A stretch of DNA of 64,000 nt, from the NCBI GenBank assembly GCA_020974905.1, contig CP087563.1, positions 186,001 through 250,000 on the forward strand, read 5' to 3'. Made by a program: the position numbers and the translations under genes. Position 1 is the stretch's first letter; each line of letters begins with the position of its first letter. The stretch comes from Planctomycetes bacterium syqfu. GTDB lineage: Bacteria > Planctomycetota > Phycisphaerae > Phycisphaerales > Phycisphaeraceae. Below, piece after piece: positions 42,881 to 63,824 of this stretch. Under the pieces are notes generated by a model. The model made no database searches. It saw only the letters and a list, made by a program, of their open reading frames with translations, and was not told the DNA's origin.

Positions 42881-42907
42881 TTGAACATAACGTATATTAA
42901 CTCTTTA
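42880..42907 (+). other. dif-like attachment site 1 (left end of provirus 1)
   Basis: Left arm GTTGAACATAA, centre CGTATA (42891-42896), right arm TTAACTCTTTA. The arm-6-arm layout and the CATAA-N6-TTA pattern match bacterial dif sites (E. coli: CATAA TGTATA TTATG). By its position the left arm should be the host's. Confidence 0.6.
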
Positions 42908-42951: not shown

Positions 42952-42980
42952 TTGACACCCATCTTAACCGTCTGTAATCT
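42952..42980 (+). promoter_or_regulatory. Early promoter of provirus 1
   Basis: TTGACA (42952-42957), 17-bp spacer, TAATCT (42975-42980). Provirus 2 has the matching TTGACG-17-TAATGT at the same place, and both are followed by GTCCAATAA and then the same hairpin. Confidence 0.7.
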
Positions 42981-43000
42981 CTAGTCCAATAAATGAAAAC

Positions 43001-43031
43001 GGCTCAGCGGATGTTGACGCATCCCTGAGCC
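43001..43031 (+). promoter_or_regulatory. Conserved leader hairpin H1, possible replication origin
   Basis: GGCTCAG-c-GGATG ... CATCC-CTGAGCC, a long near-perfect stem just after the predicted transcription start. The same hairpin lies at 63710-63741 in provirus 2. It could be an RNA leader element, a terminator of incoming transcription on the other strand, or the Rep nicking hairpin. Confidence 0.6.
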
Positions 43032-43088
43032 AGAGCCGGTGCTTGTTGTTTCTGTAGGAAACCAGCTATGACAGATGTTACTAAACTC

Positions 43089-43125
43089 ACAGCCTGCGTC
43101 AAGTTTTTGGACGTAGGCTGTTTTT
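43089..43125 (+). terminator. Leader terminator/attenuator hairpin H2 of provirus 1
   Basis: ACAGCCT-g-CGTC and GACG-t-AGGCTGT form a stem with loop AAGTTTTTG, followed by TTTT. It sits inside the early leader, upstream of the first gene. Provirus 2 has the equivalent at 63621-63651. It may attenuate early transcription or end transcription that has travelled round the circular genome. Confidence 0.65.
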
Positions 43126-43160
43126 CGTTAATGCGTCTGTAATCGGGCAAACAAGGCGAC

Positions 43161-43181
43161 CGGCTCCACGGATTGGAGCCG
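43161..43181 (+). promoter_or_regulatory. Hairpin presenting the ribosome-binding site (H3), provirus 1
   Basis: CGGCTCCA and TGGAGCCG form a perfect 8-bp stem with loop CGGAT, ending 4 nt before the start codon. In provirus 2 a different stem (GCTGCCA/TGGCAGC) encloses AGGA. Conserved structure with changed sequence indicates selection on the RNA fold. Confidence 0.65.
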
Positions 43182-43185
43182 TTGA

Positions 43186-43737
43186 ATGCAGCAAGGATGT
43201 TTCGTAATACCGGGCGACCGGGTTCGAGTTTTTACATGCTATCGACGGCGTGACGGGCAGGGCGTTTATCAAGGCGGCTTTGGTCGCTTTCCCGGTATCG
43301 TGCGTCGTGTCGATCCCCATAACCGCAAAATTGCGGTGTTGGTCATCCTGCCAGACAAGTCAGAACGCGAAGAAATTCACAGCGAAGTAACACGAGCCGG
43401 ACGGCTAAAGCGTGTCGCTATCCAGTGGCCGCATGGTGTCGAATACGAGTACCGGCGGGAAATCATCAAACAAGTTGAAACGGTCTATTTGCAAGGCCGG
43501 TGCGTGTGCATCGAGCCGGGCGATATCACATTACCCAAGCAACGGAAGGCGAACAATGGGAGCAATCAGACAGGGGCAAGGACAGCGGGGCGGCATGTCT
43601 GCGGAAGTGCTGGACGTGTTACAGGGCGACGGTGCGGAATGGACACCGTGTCCAAGCGTGGGCAAAGAGGTAACGCGAGCCGACAAAATCGCAGAACTCA
43701 AGCGCAAGGTGGTCAACGGTTATCCGGTGTTGCTTGA
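43186..43737 (+). CDS. Provirus 1 early protein with KOW/SH3-like N-terminal part
   Basis: 183 residues. The N-terminal half (IPGDRVRVFTC...FPGIVRRVDPHNRKIAVLVIL) has the turn-and-strand pattern of KOW/SH3-like barrels. The homologue in provirus 2 is 203 residues and shares PGDRVRVFTC, TRAGR and REIIK. The basic C-terminal tail overlaps the next gene by 182 nt in another frame; provirus 2 keeps a similar overlap (176 nt). First gene after the leader; a nucleic-acid-binding or antitermination role is a guess. Confidence 0.6.
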   Translation: MQQGCFVIPGDRVRVFTCYRRRDGQGVYQGGFGRFPGIVRRVDPHNRKIAVLVILPDKSEREEIHSEVTRAGRLKRVAIQWPHGVEYEYRREIIKQVETVYLQGRCVCIEPGDITLPKQRKANNGSNQTGARTAGRHVCGSAGRVTGRRCGMDTVSKRGQRGNASRQNRRTQAQGGQRLSGVA

Positions 43738-44233: not shown

Positions 44234-44429
44234 AGGGATCAATTGTCGTGTTGCTCATTGTCGCGGTGCGTTGTGGGTGATTCATGCCGTGTTGGTGGAT
44301 GTGTCTGGTGAGTTGGACGAGATCGGCGGGCAGGCCAAGCGAATTGAACGGGTCGAAAAGTTGCGGATTGAACTGTCAAAACTGCGTGACGATCTGCTGA
44401 AGATCGAAACCGAAAAACTACTTGGATAA
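44223..44429 (+). CDS. Provirus 1 small helical protein
   Basis: 68 residues starting MSIEGINCRVAHCRGALW, with GGGAG before the ATG and a coiled C-terminal half ending EKLLG. The 64-residue protein of provirus 2 at 62466-62660 has the same layout (KCALWSLKEAEKSL...EKLLR). Function unknown. Confidence 0.55.
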   Translation: MSIEGINCRVAHCRGALWVIHAVLVDVSGELDEIGGQAKRIERVEKLRIELSKLRDDLLKIETEKLLG

Positions 44430-44441
44430 AGGGGAAAACTG
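44410..44441 (+). repeat. Cassette-junction repeat (copy in provirus 1)
   Basis: CCGAAAAACTACTTGGATAA followed by AGGGGAAAACTG up to the next ATG. Near-identical segments occur twice in provirus 2 (62056-62087 and 62455-62484), flanking a 366-bp gene. They encode the EKLL end plus a ribosome-binding site. Confidence 0.7.
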
Positions 44442-45051: not shown

Positions 45052-46456
45052 TCGAGAAAAAAATGGGGGGCTGATTGACTATCAGCCCCCCTGCAAACCG
45101 GCATCGGGCTTTGCAGGTGGGGCGATCTTGGCGGATGACTCACCAGCTAAAGTCCTTTGTTCCGGGATTGACACGCTATACCTTACCGTTGATGTCGAAT
45201 GGATACCAACGGCTGCAAAGCCGGGCGGTGAGCAGACAACGCAATGGTTCAAGCGACTGCACGACGATAAGCGACGGGCAGCCAATGAACACGGTAACGT
45301 GTTCCCCGACGTGTTGCGTGTCGATGACTTCCCAGCGTGGCAATTCAACGTGTCCAGCTACGGCATGGGCGGTTATTCGTTCATGCTTGCAAGTCGCTTC
45401 ATGACGTGGAAGCTTGGCGACTGGATGCAGCCGTCAAGCCGTCCGTCGATCCTGATTGAGTTTCGTTCTGAAACACTATGGACGTTTGGCGTGTTGGAGT
45501 GCATGCGGTGGACAAGGTTGCTTATTGAAGCGATGGGAGGCATCGTCAAGACAATGAAACCTTCCCGCGTCGATATGTGCGTTGATGTCTTGATCCGTGC
45601 AGATGATTGGTGTACCGGGATCACCGAGAAAACAGTCACGCGAACGCGGGATTTTCAGGTTTACATGCAGCATCGACAATTAACCGGGCTTGGATTCGGT
45701 GGCAAGTCTGCAAAGATCAAATGTCGCATGTATGACAAGCCAAAAGAGATTGCCAGGGCGAGTGGAAAATATTGGATGTATGACGTTTGGGGCATCCGCC
45801 AGGACGAATTGACCGACGATTACCGTATTATCCGCGTCGAATTTCAGTTGATGCGTGAAAAAATCAAAGAGTTGGGCATGGACAACATGGTAGACCTGCG
45901 CAATAAGCAGGATCAATGCTGGTCTTATCTGACTCGAAAATGGTTGTTGGTTGTAACGCGGGTTGATAAACGCGACCGTCGATCCGATGCAGCATGGTGG
46001 AAAGCCGTGCAACGCGGTTATCGTGGTTCTCAATTGGCTTGTCCATTGATCCCGGCAAAGGCCGTCAAGCGGGACGTGAGACAGCTAAAAGCACAATTTG
46101 ACGGCATGCTTGTATCAATCCTTGCGTGTCATCAAACAGATATTGAGGACGGGCAACCGATCACCATGCGTGAGGCGTTACGGTGGGTTGCCGAGAATTT
46201 TCGCAAAGGTCTGGACGATGATATCTCAGACTTGGTTAAGGGCCGACTCGCCAAGTACGCACGGGCTGAAATGAAGATTCAGGAAGCGATGAATCATCAG
46301 GCATACAGGCCTGTACAGATTCAACGGGATAGTCCAGAGATTCCGCCAATAGAGCCAATGACGGCTGATCAGCTTTATTTGGAATTGATGCAGAAGATCG
46401 ACGAGACTTCAGGACGGCTAGAAGTCCCAGACCGACCGTCAGGGTCGGGAAAATAA
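45029..46456 (+). CDS. Provirus 1 replication initiation protein (Rep_trans-like)
   Basis: 475 residues. Segments match rolling-circle initiators of the Rep_trans family (CTX RstA, Tn916-type): GIDTLYLTVDVEW, KPSRVDMCVDVL (about residue 180), KIKCRMYDKPKEI (about 230) and IIRVEFQLMREKI (about 270). It should nick the origin and start circular replication. The provirus 2 protein (463 residues) shares YQPPCK, GIDTLY, KPSRVDMCVDV, CRMYDKP and RVEFQ. The last 221 nt are overlapped on the other strand. Confidence 0.78.
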   Translation: MTSKATIDREKNGGLIDYQPPCKPASGFAGGAILADDSPAKVLCSGIDTLYLTVDVEWIPTAAKPGGEQTTQWFKRLHDDKRRAANEHGNVFPDVLRVDDFPAWQFNVSSYGMGGYSFMLASRFMTWKLGDWMQPSSRPSILIEFRSETLWTFGVLECMRWTRLLIEAMGGIVKTMKPSRVDMCVDVLIRADDWCTGITEKTVTRTRDFQVYMQHRQLTGLGFGGKSAKIKCRMYDKPKEIARASGKYWMYDVWGIRQDELTDDYRIIRVEFQLMREKIKELGMDNMVDLRNKQDQCWSYLTRKWLLVVTRVDKRDRRSDAAWWKAVQRGYRGSQLACPLIPAKAVKRDVRQLKAQFDGMLVSILACHQTDIEDGQPITMREALRWVAENFRKGLDDDISDLVKGRLAKYARAEMKIQEAMNHQAYRPVQIQRDSPEIPPIEPMTADQLYLELMQKIDETSGRLEVPDRPSGSGK

Positions 46457-52070: not shown

Positions 52071-52143
52071 GGCGATGTCGTCTAATCGGGAGGACGCCTG
52101 CACCATGTGCGGGAAATGTGGGTTCGAGTCCCACCGGTCGCCA
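52071..52143 (+). tRNA. tRNA-like gene, apparent anticodon CAT
   Basis: 73 nt. D-arm GTCT...GGAC, anticodon stem CCTGC/GCGGG with loop ACCATGT, T-arm GTGGG-TTCGAGT-CCCAC, acceptor GGCGAT with 3' TCGCC and discriminator A. Oddities: C instead of T at position 33 and weak pairing at the base of the acceptor stem. It could be a diverged tRNA or a mimic. It occupies the same slot as the tmRNA-like gene of provirus 2. Confidence 0.6.
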
Positions 52144-52183: not shown

Positions 52184-52558
52184 ATGAGGCGTCAGATTAG
52201 AAAACGAAGTCAAGTCGGTGTTGTCGGTCTGATGCTGGTCATGCTGATGAATGCACAGAGGGAAATGTGGCAGATTCGATCCGATTTGAATCTCGTCATG
52301 GTGGCCGTGGGCGTGGCAAGAGTTGAACCAAAGCAGATAACTGCGGACGTTGACAGCAAACAAAAACCCAAGTTTAATACCGTTATAAGTGATTACTTTT
52401 TGACGGGGATTGACCATGGGCCGACATACGAAAAACCGTACGCGAACATCGGTGATGATAGACAATCAAATCCTGAACCGCCTTCGGCAGAAGGCACGGA
52501 GCAAAGGGACGTCAGTATCGGAAGAAATGAACAAGCTGATGTGGCAAGGTGTTTTTAA
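52184..52558 (+). CDS. Provirus 1 small membrane protein (conserved N-terminal half)
   Basis: The first 47 residues (MRRQIRKRSQVGVVGLMLVM, then MNAQREMWQIRSDLNLVM) have a close match in provirus 2 (LMNTQRDMYQIRSDLNLVMVA). The rest is not conserved and overlaps the next gene's frame, so the functional protein may be mainly the first half. Confidence 0.55.
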   Translation: MRRQIRKRSQVGVVGLMLVMLMNAQREMWQIRSDLNLVMVAVGVARVEPKQITADVDSKQKPKFNTVISDYFLTGIDHGPTYEKPYANIGDDRQSNPEPPSAEGTEQRDVSIGRNEQADVARCF

Positions 52559-52661
52559 CGGACCCAATTATGCCGAAAAAGTAACATTATCGAAAAAATG
52601 GGATAACATCAGTACTATCGTTAAATCTTTACTAGAAAACAACCTAGAGATTCGTTCTTGA
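52416..52661 (+). CDS. Provirus 1 ribbon-helix-helix regulator
   Basis: 81 residues: MGRHTKNRTRTSVMIDNQIL..., the strand-helix-helix layout of Arc/CopG-type repressors (RTSVMIDNQ as the DNA-contacting strand; GTSVSEEMNKLM as second helix). Likely represses the element's promoters; the palindrome at 46570 is a candidate target. Confidence 0.65.
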   Translation: MGRHTKNRTRTSVMIDNQILNRLRQKARSKGTSVSEEMNKLMWQGVFNGPNYAEKVTLSKKWDNISTIVKSLLENNLEIRS

Positions 52662-52807: not shown

Positions 52808-53128
52808 TTACCGATTCGGGGTATTTTTGTCTGAAAAGCTACCGGATTCCAACACGCATTCCTCCGCATCCTGCATCACATCTGCCAGACTCACCCACCA
52901 TGCAGAATCCTTGTCCTGATCATAACGACACGCCCGGTAAGTCCCGGCGTTGATCCGTCGCATAATCGTGTTATGGCTCACGCCCAGCATGCGGGACGCC
53001 TCGGCCCGTGTGACTACCGGCCCGATCTCTTTGGCTACCTTCCGCCAAAAGAACATGCGACGAACCTCCACGCTCGGATTGTTCTTGCCACGCTTGAACG
53101 GCGGTCCCATCTTGGGACGTTCGCCCAT
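52808..53128 (-). CDS. Provirus 2 helix-turn-helix regulator (MerR/excisionase type)
   Basis: 106 residues starting MGERPKMGPP with CGGAG upstream; earlier in-frame starts at 53191 and 53227 exist. The core VVTRAEASRMLGVSHNTIMRR followed by AGTYRACRYDQDKDSAWWVS is the HTH_17/MerR-like layout of excisionases and small repressors. It takes the place of the ribbon-helix-helix gene in provirus 1. Could be a repressor or a Xer recombination directionality factor. Confidence 0.65.
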   Translation of the reverse strand: MGERPKMGPPFKRGKNNPSVEVRRMFFWRKVAKEIGPVVTRAEASRMLGVSHNTIMRRINAGTYRACRYDQDKDSAWWVSLADVMQDAEECVLESGSFSDKNTPNR

Positions 53129-53369
53129 ACGACGACTCCGGCGTTTTGGATTTAGTGGCGTTTCCACCCGGTTGAAAATGTCGAATTCCATGACCGGAAT
53201 TATCATCTGACATTGCCACCGGGTCAACCCTTGCCACGCCCACGGCCACCATGACGAGATTCAAATCGGATCGAATCTGATACATGTCACGCTGAGTATT
53301 CATCAGCATGACCAGCATGACCGCAAGTGTTCCTGCTGTCCCGCGTTTTCTAATCTTGCGCGTGATCAT
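52971..53369 (-). CDS. Provirus 2 small membrane protein (conserved N-terminal half)
   Basis: Starts MITRKIRKRGTAGTLAVM and keeps the same about 47-residue block as the provirus 1 gene. The remaining frame overlaps the regulator gene and is not conserved. Its start overlaps the preceding stop (ATGA). Confidence 0.55.
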   Translation of the reverse strand: MITRKIRKRGTAGTLAVMLVMLMNTQRDMYQIRSDLNLVMVAVGVARVDPVAMSDDNSGHGIRHFQPGGNATKSKTPESSYGRTSQDGTAVQAWQEQSERGGSSHVLLAEGSQRDRAGSHTGRGVPHAGREP

Positions 53370-53497: not shown

Positions 53498-53522
53498 GGG
53501 TACTACTCCTGATCCTGATTAA

Positions 53523-53604
53523 TGGAGCCGGTGGGATTTGAACCCACGTCCGAGCATTTCCGTCATGCGGTTTTAACGCCCGTCGATTCCAGACTCGCGG
53601 CCCC
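53523..53604 (-). ncRNA. tmRNA-like RNA gene without tag region
   Basis: 82 nt. The 5' part GGGGCCG...GTCTGGAATCGACGGG is the hallmark tmRNA start (GGGGCTG...CTGGATTCGACGGG in E. coli). The 3' part CGGACGTGGGTTCAAATCCC plus ACCGGCTCCA is the tmRNA T-arm and acceptor. A perfect 7-bp acceptor stem (one G-T) and 5-bp T stem form. Pseudoknots and tag ORF are absent. Either a virus-encoded tRNA-like-domain RNA or a captured, deleted ssrA. Confidence 0.75.
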
Positions 53605-61795: not shown

Positions 61796-62055
61796 CATTT
61801 ACCGTCGCTTTCTTGTCTCGACCTGCTCTGGCGTACATACTCCGCTTCAATCCGCTTATGCTTGGCCGTAACCAACCGCTCAACACGAACCGCCTCAGCC
61901 ATCAACTTGGCCATCTCAACAATCAATTGCTTGTTTTCATCATCTTGAGTACAGCTATCAACATTCCGAAACGCCCGGCTTACCGCTTCCGTTACGCCCC
62001 ACAACATCGCAGTCGCCTCGGCGTAATAGTTAACGTCTCTTACAGGTACATCCAT
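61795..62055 (-). CDS. Provirus 2 small helical protein
   Basis: 86 residues starting MDVPVRDVNYYAEATAMLWG, helical and charged. Preceded by the cassette-junction repeat with its AAGGGA ribosome-binding site. Function unknown. Confidence 0.5.
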   Translation of the reverse strand: MDVPVRDVNYYAEATAMLWGVTEAVSRAFRNVDSCTQDDENKQLIVEMAKLMAEAVRVERLVTAKHKRIEAEYVRQSRSRQESDGK

Positions 62056-62087
62056 CGTTTTTCCCTTTATCCAAGTAGTTTTTCGGT
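62056..62087 (-). repeat. Cassette-junction repeat, provirus 2 copy a
   Basis: On the minus strand ACCGAAAAACTACTTGGATA then AAGGGAAAAACG up to an ATG. It matches 62455-62484 and 44410-44441. Confidence 0.7.
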
Positions 62088-62088
62088 T

Positions 62089-62454
62089 TTAAACGTTTTC
62101 ATAAACCAATACACGCAAATCACAATCCGCATCTGCAAACATTTTCAACAATGACATGACCGAATTCTTAAAACCGCCATTTGTCGAATCTGCCCGCATC
62201 TGAACCAACAATTTCATCTGTTCTTCGATAATTTTTCTCATCCCAATAAGTAAACGAACCACCTCATCCCGGCTTAAACGCTCATCAGTCTTCTTACAAT
62301 CACACTCCCAATCATCCGGCGGATTTACCGTTGAACAACCGCACACACTGCACGAGACTTCAACGCCCAACGGCTTACAGTTCGGACAATTCCAATCCCA
62401 CGGAGCATCAATTGCCATGCATCCACACTTGCCACACTTAACGCCTCTACCCAT
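62089..62454 (-). CDS. Provirus 2 double zinc-ribbon protein
   Basis: 121 residues. The first half has two cysteine clusters (CGKCGC...CPNC and CSVCGC...CDC), rubredoxin/zinc-ribbon style; the second half is helical. The gene sits between two copies of the cassette-junction repeat, so it looks like an inserted module. No counterpart in provirus 1. Confidence 0.55.
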   Translation of the reverse strand: MGRGVKCGKCGCMAIDAPWDWNCPNCKPLGVEVSCSVCGCSTVNPPDDWECDCKKTDERLSRDEVVRLLIGMRKIIEEQMKLLVQMRADSTNGGFKNSVMSLLKMFADADCDLRVLVYENV

Positions 62455-62484
62455 CGTTTTTCCCTTTATCTAAGTAGTTTTTCG
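62455..62484 (-). repeat. Cassette-junction repeat, provirus 2 copy b
   Basis: On the minus strand CGAAAAACTACTTAGATAAA then GGGAAAAACG. It encodes the EKLLR end of the upstream gene and the ribosome-binding site of the next. Confidence 0.7.
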
Positions 62485-62660
62485 ACTGTAATATGCCCAA
62501 CTTCCCGCACCTCTCCAACCAATTCGCCAATCATCCGGTTAACCTTGCAAGAACTCCTCGGTGCCACTTTATCCAGTGATTTTTCAGCCTCTTTAAGCGA
62601 CCACAACGCACACTTCATTGCCGCCACTGCAGCGGCCACCAAGCGTTCATCTTCGTCCAT
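62466..62660 (-). CDS. Provirus 2 small helical protein
   Basis: 64 residues starting MDEDERLVAAAVAAMKCALW and ending EKLLR; counterpart of the 68-residue protein of provirus 1. The start overlaps the preceding stop (TGATG). Confidence 0.55.
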   Translation of the reverse strand: MDEDERLVAAAVAAMKCALWSLKEAEKSLDKVAPRSSCKVNRMIGELVGEVREVGHITVEKLLR

Positions 62661-63574: not shown

Positions 63575-63592
63575 GCTGCCATCCTTGGCAGC
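63575..63592 (-). promoter_or_regulatory. Hairpin presenting the ribosome-binding site (H3), provirus 2
   Basis: On the minus strand GCTGCCA-AGGA-TGGCAGC: a perfect 7-bp stem with the ribosome-binding sequence as tetraloop, two bases before the ATG. Confidence 0.65.
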
Positions 63593-63620
63593 CGGTTGGT
63601 GTGTCGCACTTTAAACAAAA

Positions 63621-63651
63621 TCAGCCAACGTCAAAAAACTTGACGGTGGCT
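63621..63651 (-). terminator. Leader hairpin H2 of provirus 2
   Basis: On the minus strand CAGCC-acc-GTCAAG...CTTGAC-style stem ending GGCTG, followed by ATTTTGTTT. Equivalent of 43089-43125. Confidence 0.55.
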
Positions 63652-63709
63652 GTAATATCTGTTCCAATTGTGCATAGCTGGTCATCACCAAAACACCTTA
63701 CCGGCTCAA

Positions 63710-63741
63710 GGCTCAGGGATGCTGCTAACATCCGCTGAGCC
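63710..63741 (-). promoter_or_regulatory. Conserved leader hairpin H1 of provirus 2
   Basis: GGCTCAG-c-GGATG ... CATCC-CTGAGCC on the minus strand, almost identical to 43001-43031. On the plus strand it is followed by GTTTTTAT, so it could also end transcription leaving the element. Confidence 0.6.
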
Positions 63742-63763
63742 GTTTTTATAGTTATTGGACAGA

Positions 63764-63792
63764 ACATTAACTAAGATTTCGATCCGCGTCAA
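63764..63792 (-). promoter_or_regulatory. Early promoter of provirus 2
   Basis: TTGACG (63787-63792), 17-bp spacer, TAATGT (63764-63769), minus strand. Same spacing and following GTCCAATAA as in provirus 1. Confidence 0.7.
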
Positions 63793-63824
63793 CAAGAAAA
63801 ATGGACCTAAACCGGCTCTTAAGT

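Follow-up and report, generated by a model that had tools for sequence, protein, structure and literature searches.

In pT181, an antisense RNA of 87 nt counteracts a pre-emptor segment, and the hairpin that can then form at the ribosome site is terminator-like as well (PMC5703833). For pSK41, the same text (PMC5703833) describes an RNAI of about 83 nt with two stem-loops, together with a proposed induction of the ribosome-site hairpin without attenuation. In general, binding of an antisense RNA can bias a leader to the OFF fold, which results in termination or in a hidden ribosome site (PMC3753616).

In this study, we analyzed a leader that occurs twice in a window of 64,000 nt (the whole stretch of DNA that was analyzed). 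The genome of the window has a size of 7.38 Mb in a single contig, and the nearest named relative found was Phycisphaerales bacterium UBA7800. The leader precedes the early operons of two elements, E1 and E2, which are read here as double-jelly-roll (DJR) prophages. To our knowledge, little is known about the silencing of early genes in tailless DJR prophages. One proposal, made tentatively in PMC9966536, is that repressor-like genes are responsible. Judged from its sequence, the leader probably encodes in cis an antisense RNA (about 76-83 nt) of which it is itself the target, and which would repress the early operon. The repression step and a role in copy control or immunity are inferences.

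Elements in the window and their relatives

E1 and E2 lie in inverse orientation on the same Phycisphaerales chromosome (Table 1). Dif-like sites were found at the element ends (window positions 42889, 52688 and 63834), and also in locus L019 (minus strand) and at position 1250 of locus L144. The name dif is given by resemblance. No integrase was recognized by inspection of the listed open reading frames (ORFs). The elements probably entered via host Xer integration at the dif-like sites.

The replication initiator (Rep) of E1 resembles Rep_trans weakly (E = 0.047, below the cut-off). The packaging ATPase of E1 is A32/FtsK-like (Pox_A32, 23.7 bits against a cut-off of 22.8). A profile of six such capsid proteins matched the coat proteins of PDB entries 3j31 and 2bbd, which we take to be STIV, with an E-value of 5e-7. 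E2 carries relatives of the E1 Rep, ATPase and capsid protein. A DJR capsid was found together with an FtsK/A32-type packaging ATPase, and from the content of capsid, ATPase and Rep we therefore read E1 and E2 as DJR prophages. The closest isolates by ATPase were six Vibrio phages (29-31% identity), and the three that were examined are Autolykiviridae.

Further elements were sought with Rep, ATPase and capsid profiles in overlapping sets of 101 genomes of relatives, 397 genomes of the class and 392 genomes of the phylum. Three more elements in which ATPase and capsid are both present (E4, E5 and E6) came from the profile searches, and the Rep search of genome contigs gave one locus, E3. No relatives were confirmed in IMG/VR by Rep and ATPase, and a search of phage records by Rep found none.

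Other features were observed in E1 and E2. A tRNA-like match lies near the 3' end of E1 (52072-52142, plus strand), and a tmRNA-family/tRNA-Phe-like match near the 3' end of E2 (53520-53604, minus strand). An inverted pair of 98 nt, 91% alike (52232-52329 and 53221-53318), lies where the ends of E1 and E2 adjoin; the longer inverted pairs listed for the window are 71-78% alike. The last genes of E1 (52410-52661, plus strand) and E2 (52808-53227, minus strand), weakly ribbon-helix-helix and HTH_17 at scores below the cut-offs, possibly encode DNA-binding regulators. A repeated unit of 29-41 nt was found near gene junctions in both elements (62052-62092, 62451-62491 and, inverted, 44407-44439).

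Table 1. Positions of the elements, leader features and rep-start hairpins (window positions unless a locus is given)
Element	Feature	Position	Strand	Remark
E1	element	about 42.9 to 52.7 kb	+	
E1	early sense promoter TTGACA-17-TAATCT	42952..42980	+	-35 at 42952-42957
E1	H1 (P1) hairpin	43001..43031	either	
E1	H1 as terminator hairpin of predicted antisense RNA		-	U-tract 42996-42999
E1	S segment GAGCCGGT	43033..43040	+	pre-emptor-like; pairs with D 43159-43166
E1	P segment ACCAGCT	43061..43067	+	complement of first nucleotides of predicted antisense RNA
E1	predicted antisense RNA	42991..43068	-	runs from about 43068 to about 42991; 5' stem-loop and bulged terminator hairpin
E1	predicted antisense promoter TTGACG-16-TAACAT	43075..43102	-	
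E1	H2 and T-run, terminator-like	43089..43125	+	hairpin 43089-43121; 5' arm holds predicted antisense -35
E1	D segment ACCGGCTC	43159..43166	+	common to S:D helix and 5' arm of H3
E1	H3	43162..43180	+	contains orf1 Shine-Dalgarno GGAG 43175-43178
E1	orf1, first early gene	43186..43737	+	start ATG 43186
E2	element	about 63.9 to 52.7 kb	-	
E2	early sense promoter TTGACG-17-TAATGT	63764..63792	-	-35 at 63792-63787
E2	H1 (P1) hairpin	63710..63741	either	stems as in E1, loop differs
E2	S segment GAGCCGGT	63700..63707	-	
E2	P segment ACCAGCT	63676..63682	-	
E2	predicted antisense RNA	63675..63751	+	
E2	predicted antisense promoter TTGACG-17-TCCAAT	63640..63668	+	TG before
E2	H2	63621..63653	-	
E2	D segment	63590-63596	-	
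E2	H3	63575-63593	-	AAGGA in loop
E2	first gene start	63572	-	
E3	close third copy of E1/E2 leader	in G003		
E4	element	in G022 (L024)		
E5	element	window's own genome, at 3.61 Mb (L089)		
E6	element	in G008 (L090)		
E7	element	G002:C112 (L156)		
E8	element	G002:C412 (L157)		
	rep-start hairpin	45065-45091		
	rep-start hairpin	L019 5843; L020 11873; L021 2775; L022 8718; L023 1929; L024 9360; L070 3126		

The leader and the predicted antisense RNA

The leader is real and conserved. The sequence-only reading had described a promoter and three hairpins, H1, H2 and H3, as common to the two elements, and the two-sequence alignment of E1 and E2 bore this out, with the parts in the same order. The sequence GTCCAATAA after the sense promoter, followed by H1, is common to E1 and E2. 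The folding z-scores of the H1-H2 stretch were -5.0, -4.7 and -4.6 in E1, E2 and E3, and those of the whole leader were -5.6, -6.0 and -5.7, with none of 200 shuffles as good in each case. The values for H3 by itself (-1.35, -1.54 and -2.80 in E1-E3) and for the whole leader of the distant E4 (-1.9, 9 of 200 shuffles) are weak.

H1 consists of 6-7 bp, a bulged C, 5 bp and a loop of 5-7, with at most one G-U. Between E1/E2 and E3, four stem pairs of H1 differ on both sides and the pairing is kept. The leaders of E4-E6, which were recognized by eye and by folding and were chosen for this architecture, have nearly no sequence in common with those of E1-E3, and the parts stand in the same order. 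In 633,382 scanned bases, the sole sites of the strict H1 pattern were the six leaders then known (E1-E6); a looser pattern matched elsewhere too.

A sense promoter site was found 12-23 nt 5' of H1 in seven of the eight leaders (weak in E7 and E8). In the weight-matrix analysis, 10, 43, 30, 15, 3 and 107 of 200 shuffles were at least as good as the sites of E1-E6, and E6, with 107 such shuffles, is therefore regarded as having no sense promoter. The E1 site is the second-best matrix site, the best one using the same -35 with a 15-nt spacer. A simple consensus scan missed the sense promoters of E1, E2 and E3 (0/3), and the only H2 of these three elements that it called as a terminator was that of E3. 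A second copy of GAGCCGGT lies 5' of the E2 promoter (63811-63818, minus strand).

The opposite strand had no place in the sequence-only reading, nor had the long-range helix described below. A weight matrix was run over the 200 nt 3' of H1 for antisense promoters. The distances of the best sigma70-like site from H1 were 43, 41, 43, 51, 45, 43, 46 and 48 nt in E1-E8. The individual promoters are modest: in E1-E6, the number of shuffles out of 200 that scored no worse was 6, 8, 4, 26, 58 and 36. The distances in E1, E4, E5 and E6 lie within 8 nt of one another, and so small a spread was obtained in 1 of 2000 shuffled sets, and in 0 of 2000 with E7 included. The distances of E7 and E8 were not an input to the search that found these two loci. 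The simple scan also gave antisense promoter-like sites, with the -35 in H2, in E1 and E3 and not in E2.

When the start was set 7 nt past the -10, the predicted RNAs were 76-83 nt long in all eight elements, with a 5' stem-loop followed by H1 and a U-tract (z-scores of -2.1 to -4.5); the U-tract of E4 is weak. The 5' stem has 6-8 bp and is interrupted in E8. Pairing starts at nt 1 or 2 in seven RNAs and at nt 5 in E8, and the spacer between the two stem-loops is 1-4 nt. The bulged nucleotide of H1 is identical in all eight. In E1, the complement of the S segment is the 3' strand of the 5' stem of the predicted RNA.

Covariation in additional homologues, which the sequence-only reading had set as a test, was found. 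In the MAFFT alignment of six sequences (A12), 89.4% of the cells were paired and 15 of 19 pairs had changed on both sides. None of 500 shuffles reached the observed covariation, and slid partners were 32-47% paired. The eight-row model alignment, which is fitted to the structure, gave 90.1% and again 15/19. In A12 and A17, the E4 row is shifted by one column, and the counts from these alignments are therefore too low. Alignments A11, A14 and A16 were misaligned or contained chance matches and were left out of the counts. Among the seven in-register leaders, G-U on the antisense strand with C.A on the sense strand was seen in seven cells and the converse in one, which is a small strand preference; in the own fold of E4, one pair favours the sense strand.

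Two covariance models were used: R1, for the antisense strand, was built from E1-E3 only, and R2 from six elements. In an unfiltered search of 47,002 bases, the top three matches of R1 were E6 (E = 1e-7), E5 (0.0019) and E4 (0.0032), at the ends and on the strand predicted, and the next match had an E-value of 0.56. With default filters and 325,445 bases, R1 was convincing for E1-E3 and E6 only, E6 alone among E4-E6 being matched over its whole length. R2, run on 51 whole genomes, recovered the six known leaders and gave E7 (E = 5e-8) and E8 (2.2e-5), which R1 also finds (1.6e-6 and 3.4e-6). The next three R2 matches were weak, with E-values from 0.007 to 0.097. A DJR protein was sought near two of them, G044:C217 (0.007) and G031 (0.097), with no match; the third was at G022:C1:22074 (0.03).

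The contig of E7 carries a packaging ATPase with 47% identity to that of E4 and an orf2-like gene, and the predicted RNA is located just 5' of the first ORF. The capsid and ATPase queries had no match in the contig of E8. E8 adjoins an ORF of 660 aa, by eye the same as the ORF flanking E3, which is presumably squalene-hopene-cyclase-like.

The leader was also sought in more distant relatives. No such leader was seen in the stretches examined of the Rep-only relatives (L020-L023, L025, L026 and L070-L076) or of the distant ATPase/capsid relatives (L091-L094 and L141), and R2 gave nothing below an E-value of 1.7 on the distant capsid relative L141. Eleven IMG/VR contigs with the exact leader pattern, a gapped pattern of 18 bases sought in a very large collection, were judged to be chance matches. 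An H1-like hairpin with an A-tract is absent from all of them; in L123, a hairpin resembling H1 lies some 40 nt away from the match, on the opposite strand. At the gathering score, Rfam gave no family in the leader and no ctRNA family in the window. At E <= 10, the matches in the leaders of E1, E5 and E6 were at chance level, and the only ctRNA family among them was ctRNA_pGA1 in E5 (13.4 bits, E = 3.8). YUNR loop motifs were too common and were dropped.

Predicted long-range pairing, early genes and competing explanations

On the sense strand, the 22 nt 3' of H1 (S) were compared with the region immediately 5' of the first gene. Only 0-4 of 300 shuffles gave a duplex energy as strong in any of the eight leaders. 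The minimum free energy folds of all eight contain, at some transcript length, a helix between S and a segment D that lies 80-140 nt from H1; the S:D helix is absent from the longest folded transcripts of E5 and E8, and the longest unbroken listed helix of E2, E3 and E8 is another one. The S/D letters differ from element to element (GAGCCGGT/ACCGGCTC in E1, GTGGTTCGGC/GCCGAGCCGC in E4, GGCTGGTCGAAA/TTTCGGCCAGCC in E5 and GGTCTGGCCC/GGGTCAGACC in E7). In every leader except that of E4, by eye, D reaches at its 3' end into the 5' arm of a hairpin that holds or surrounds the Shine-Dalgarno sequence (SD) of the first gene.

The opening of the SD was then computed with the bases covered by the antisense RNA masked, and is given as free/antisense-bound. 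Closure was clear in E1 (0.68/0.00) and E3 (0.77/0.00) and partial in E4 (0.67/0.39). There was no or little change in E2 (0.85/0.85), E5 (0.04/0.00) and E6 (0.36/0.32), and the direction was opposite in E7 (0.06/0.32) and E8 (0.23/0.39). Since SD closure is clear in only two of the eight, the antisense RNA is better supported than the repression route.

The proposed mechanism is as follows. The antisense promoter, 41-51 nt 3' of H1, would drive an RNA that is ended by the bulged hairpin H1 and the U-tract and is fully complementary to H1 and S of the sense leader. Without this RNA, S would pair with D and so withhold D from the ribosome-site hairpin of the first gene. When the antisense RNA is present, S would be occupied, D would join the ribosome-site hairpin, and early expression would be lowered. 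The genes affected would include that of the replication initiator, located about 1.8 kb 3' of the orf1 start in E1. H2 may add premature termination in five elements. As a result, the copy number of the excised genome would be controlled, and incoming elements whose loops are the same would be excluded.

The same region could instead be a structured leader that works on the sense strand only (riboswitch-like, an attenuator or a put-like antiterminator), the antisense features being by-products of complementary hairpins. The good folding of the sense strands of E1-E3, the S:D complementarity in all eight and the terminator-like H2 in five would all be expected of such a leader. Such a leader gives no reason to expect that an antisense promoter keeps a fixed distance, that the U-tract of H1 lies on the antisense side, that a 5' stem begins where the antisense RNA is predicted to start, or that C.A cells of the sense strand are G-U on the antisense strand. 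Rfam, moreover, gave neither a family at the gathering score nor a convincing weak match in E1, E5 and E6. The part of H2 bears on the same question. The sequence-only reading had called H2 attenuator-like. A T-run follows H2 in E1, E2 (weaker), E3, E7 and E8, and none was seen by eye in E4-E6; folding of growing transcripts of four leaders gave no antiterminator alternative to H2. Attenuation is therefore only possible, its terminator part being present in five leaders and its antiterminator part in none of the four that were folded. We consider the sense-only explanation rather unlikely.

It is very unlikely, in our estimate, that H1 is a mere terminator against opposing transcription at the element edge, with an incidental long-range pairing. 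H1 and its A-tract are indeed terminator-like on the opposite strand and lie near the attachment site. For such a terminator, however, the S:D complementarity, the 5' stem-loop, the covariation in both hairpins and the promoter 41-51 nt away would be superfluous.

The sequence-only reading had left a choice between RNA-level control and an origin. The covariation in the homologues speaks for the former, and a better candidate for the latter was found at the rep start. A hairpin of a G-run and a C-run around CTATCAGCCCCCC is conserved there as DNA at eight sites (Table 1) and is translated in one of two frames, depending on the element; it is a candidate double-strand origin. No exact match to this motif was found in E2, E5, E6 or E7. 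That the leader itself is the replication origin of the virus might be suggested by hairpins 5' of an operon whose initiator is weakly like Rep_trans at a score below the cut-off. The leader is nevertheless kept in E5 and E6, where tblastn detected no relative of the E1 or E4 Rep, and we hold this reading to be highly improbable. The rep-start motif also occurs with Rep relatives in L070 and in L020-L023, the latter without a match to the E1 ATPase and capsid queries. These five loci possibly represent another class of mobile element. Least probable of all is control of termination by a leader peptide translated through H2, which was rejected as not conserved: E1 and E3 have a short ORF through H2, but the encoded peptides are not alike, translation from the first ATG of E2 would begin elsewhere, and the tested stretch has no ATG in E5, E7 and E8.

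The first protein had been proposed in the sequence-only reading as an antiterminator or autoregulator of the leader. The N-terminal region of E1 orf1 is beta-rich and weakly KOW/SH3-like (PDB sequence matches with E-values of 0.27 and 1.8). Its structure model had a mean pLDDT of 50 and no fold match at E <= 0.001, and is too poor to decide on a KOW antiterminator. The first ORF is of this weakly KOW-like type in E1-E3; by eye, another ORF is common to E5, E7 and E8, and those of E4 and E6 are others again. Since the leader persists in elements with different first genes, control of the leader by the first protein is not supported, and the KOW antiterminator was set aside. What stays constant is the predicted RNA, with variation in the first gene and in the replication protein.

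The loops of H1 bear on the specificity of the predicted antisense RNA. The H1 stems are identical and the loops different between E1 and E2, and likewise between E7 and E8, whose co-residence is less sure because G002 is a draft of 560 contigs. In E5, which shares the genome of E1 and E2, both the stem and the loop differ. A kept stem with a diverged loop would fit loop-specific antisense groups; neutral loops would give this pattern as well. We give an even chance to a wider proposal, in which an unrecognized family of antisense RNAs is the common early-operon control of a dif-integrated DJR lineage and has been kept through exchange of the first gene and Rep. The loops would then set incompatibility or immunity groups, letting E1, E2 and E5 share a chromosome.

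Comparison with described systems

Among DJR viruses, the ATPase links the elements to Autolykiviridae, and the capsid profile to the coat proteins 3j31 and 2bbd; R2 gave nothing below an E-value of 0.38 on the three autolykivirus records. The Vibrio phage NO16 is a similar case, as a non-tailed temperate phage of about 10 kb that is thought to integrate at dif via the host Xer (PMC9966536). It differs in that two oppositely transcribed genes have tentatively been named its repressors (PMC9966536). The word antisense is absent from the accessible parts of three DJR-virus texts (PMC5894146, PMC11630473 and PMC9966536). A limited literature search, with few subscription papers, found no earlier report of antisense RNA control in tectiviruses or DJR phages.

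Like the RNAI of pT181, which acts on repC, the predicted RNA is short and counter-transcribed to an untranslated leader (PMC5703833). pT181 has a Rep_trans-type Rep, and the Rep of E1 bears a weak likeness to this type. A pre-emptor is suggested by S:D pairing in all eight leaders, by the overlap of D with the ribosome-site hairpin in seven (by eye), and by SD closure that is clear in E1 and E3 and partial in E4. An antisense RNA opposite the leader is indicated by signs in the DNA only, namely the promoter position, the terminator, the covariation and the model matches. The ribosome-site hairpin of pT181 resembles a terminator (PMC5703833), whereas H3 here has no T-run and H2 is separate. 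The first gene here is also not rep, and the element is an integrated capsid virus, not a plasmid. Because the terminator feature and a match to an Rfam ctRNA family are both lacking, the predicted leader RNA is not filed as a member of these systems.

The RNAI of pSK41 is similar in its length of about 83 nt, its two stem-loops and its complementarity to the rep leader 5' of the initiation region (PMC5703833). Two stem-loops are present in all eight predicted RNAs, and ribosome-site sequestration is only partly supported in the computation. The pSK41 RNA has an unstructured 5' tail of 18 nt and a spacer of 8 nt, and pSK41 is a RepA_N plasmid (PMC5703833). In the predicted RNAs, the 5' stem begins at nt 1-5 and the spacer measures 1-4 nt, and E1 is a capsid virus. 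The E1 Rep matches Rep_trans only, and weakly.

With these differences, the present system would work like the antisense control of pT181 and pSK41. A plasmid-like switch based on RNA, if true, would tie DJR viruses to plasmid replication control. It would also give a handle on relatives whose proteins are too diverged, as with the two loci found so here, and incompatibility between co-resident prophages would become testable with reporters.
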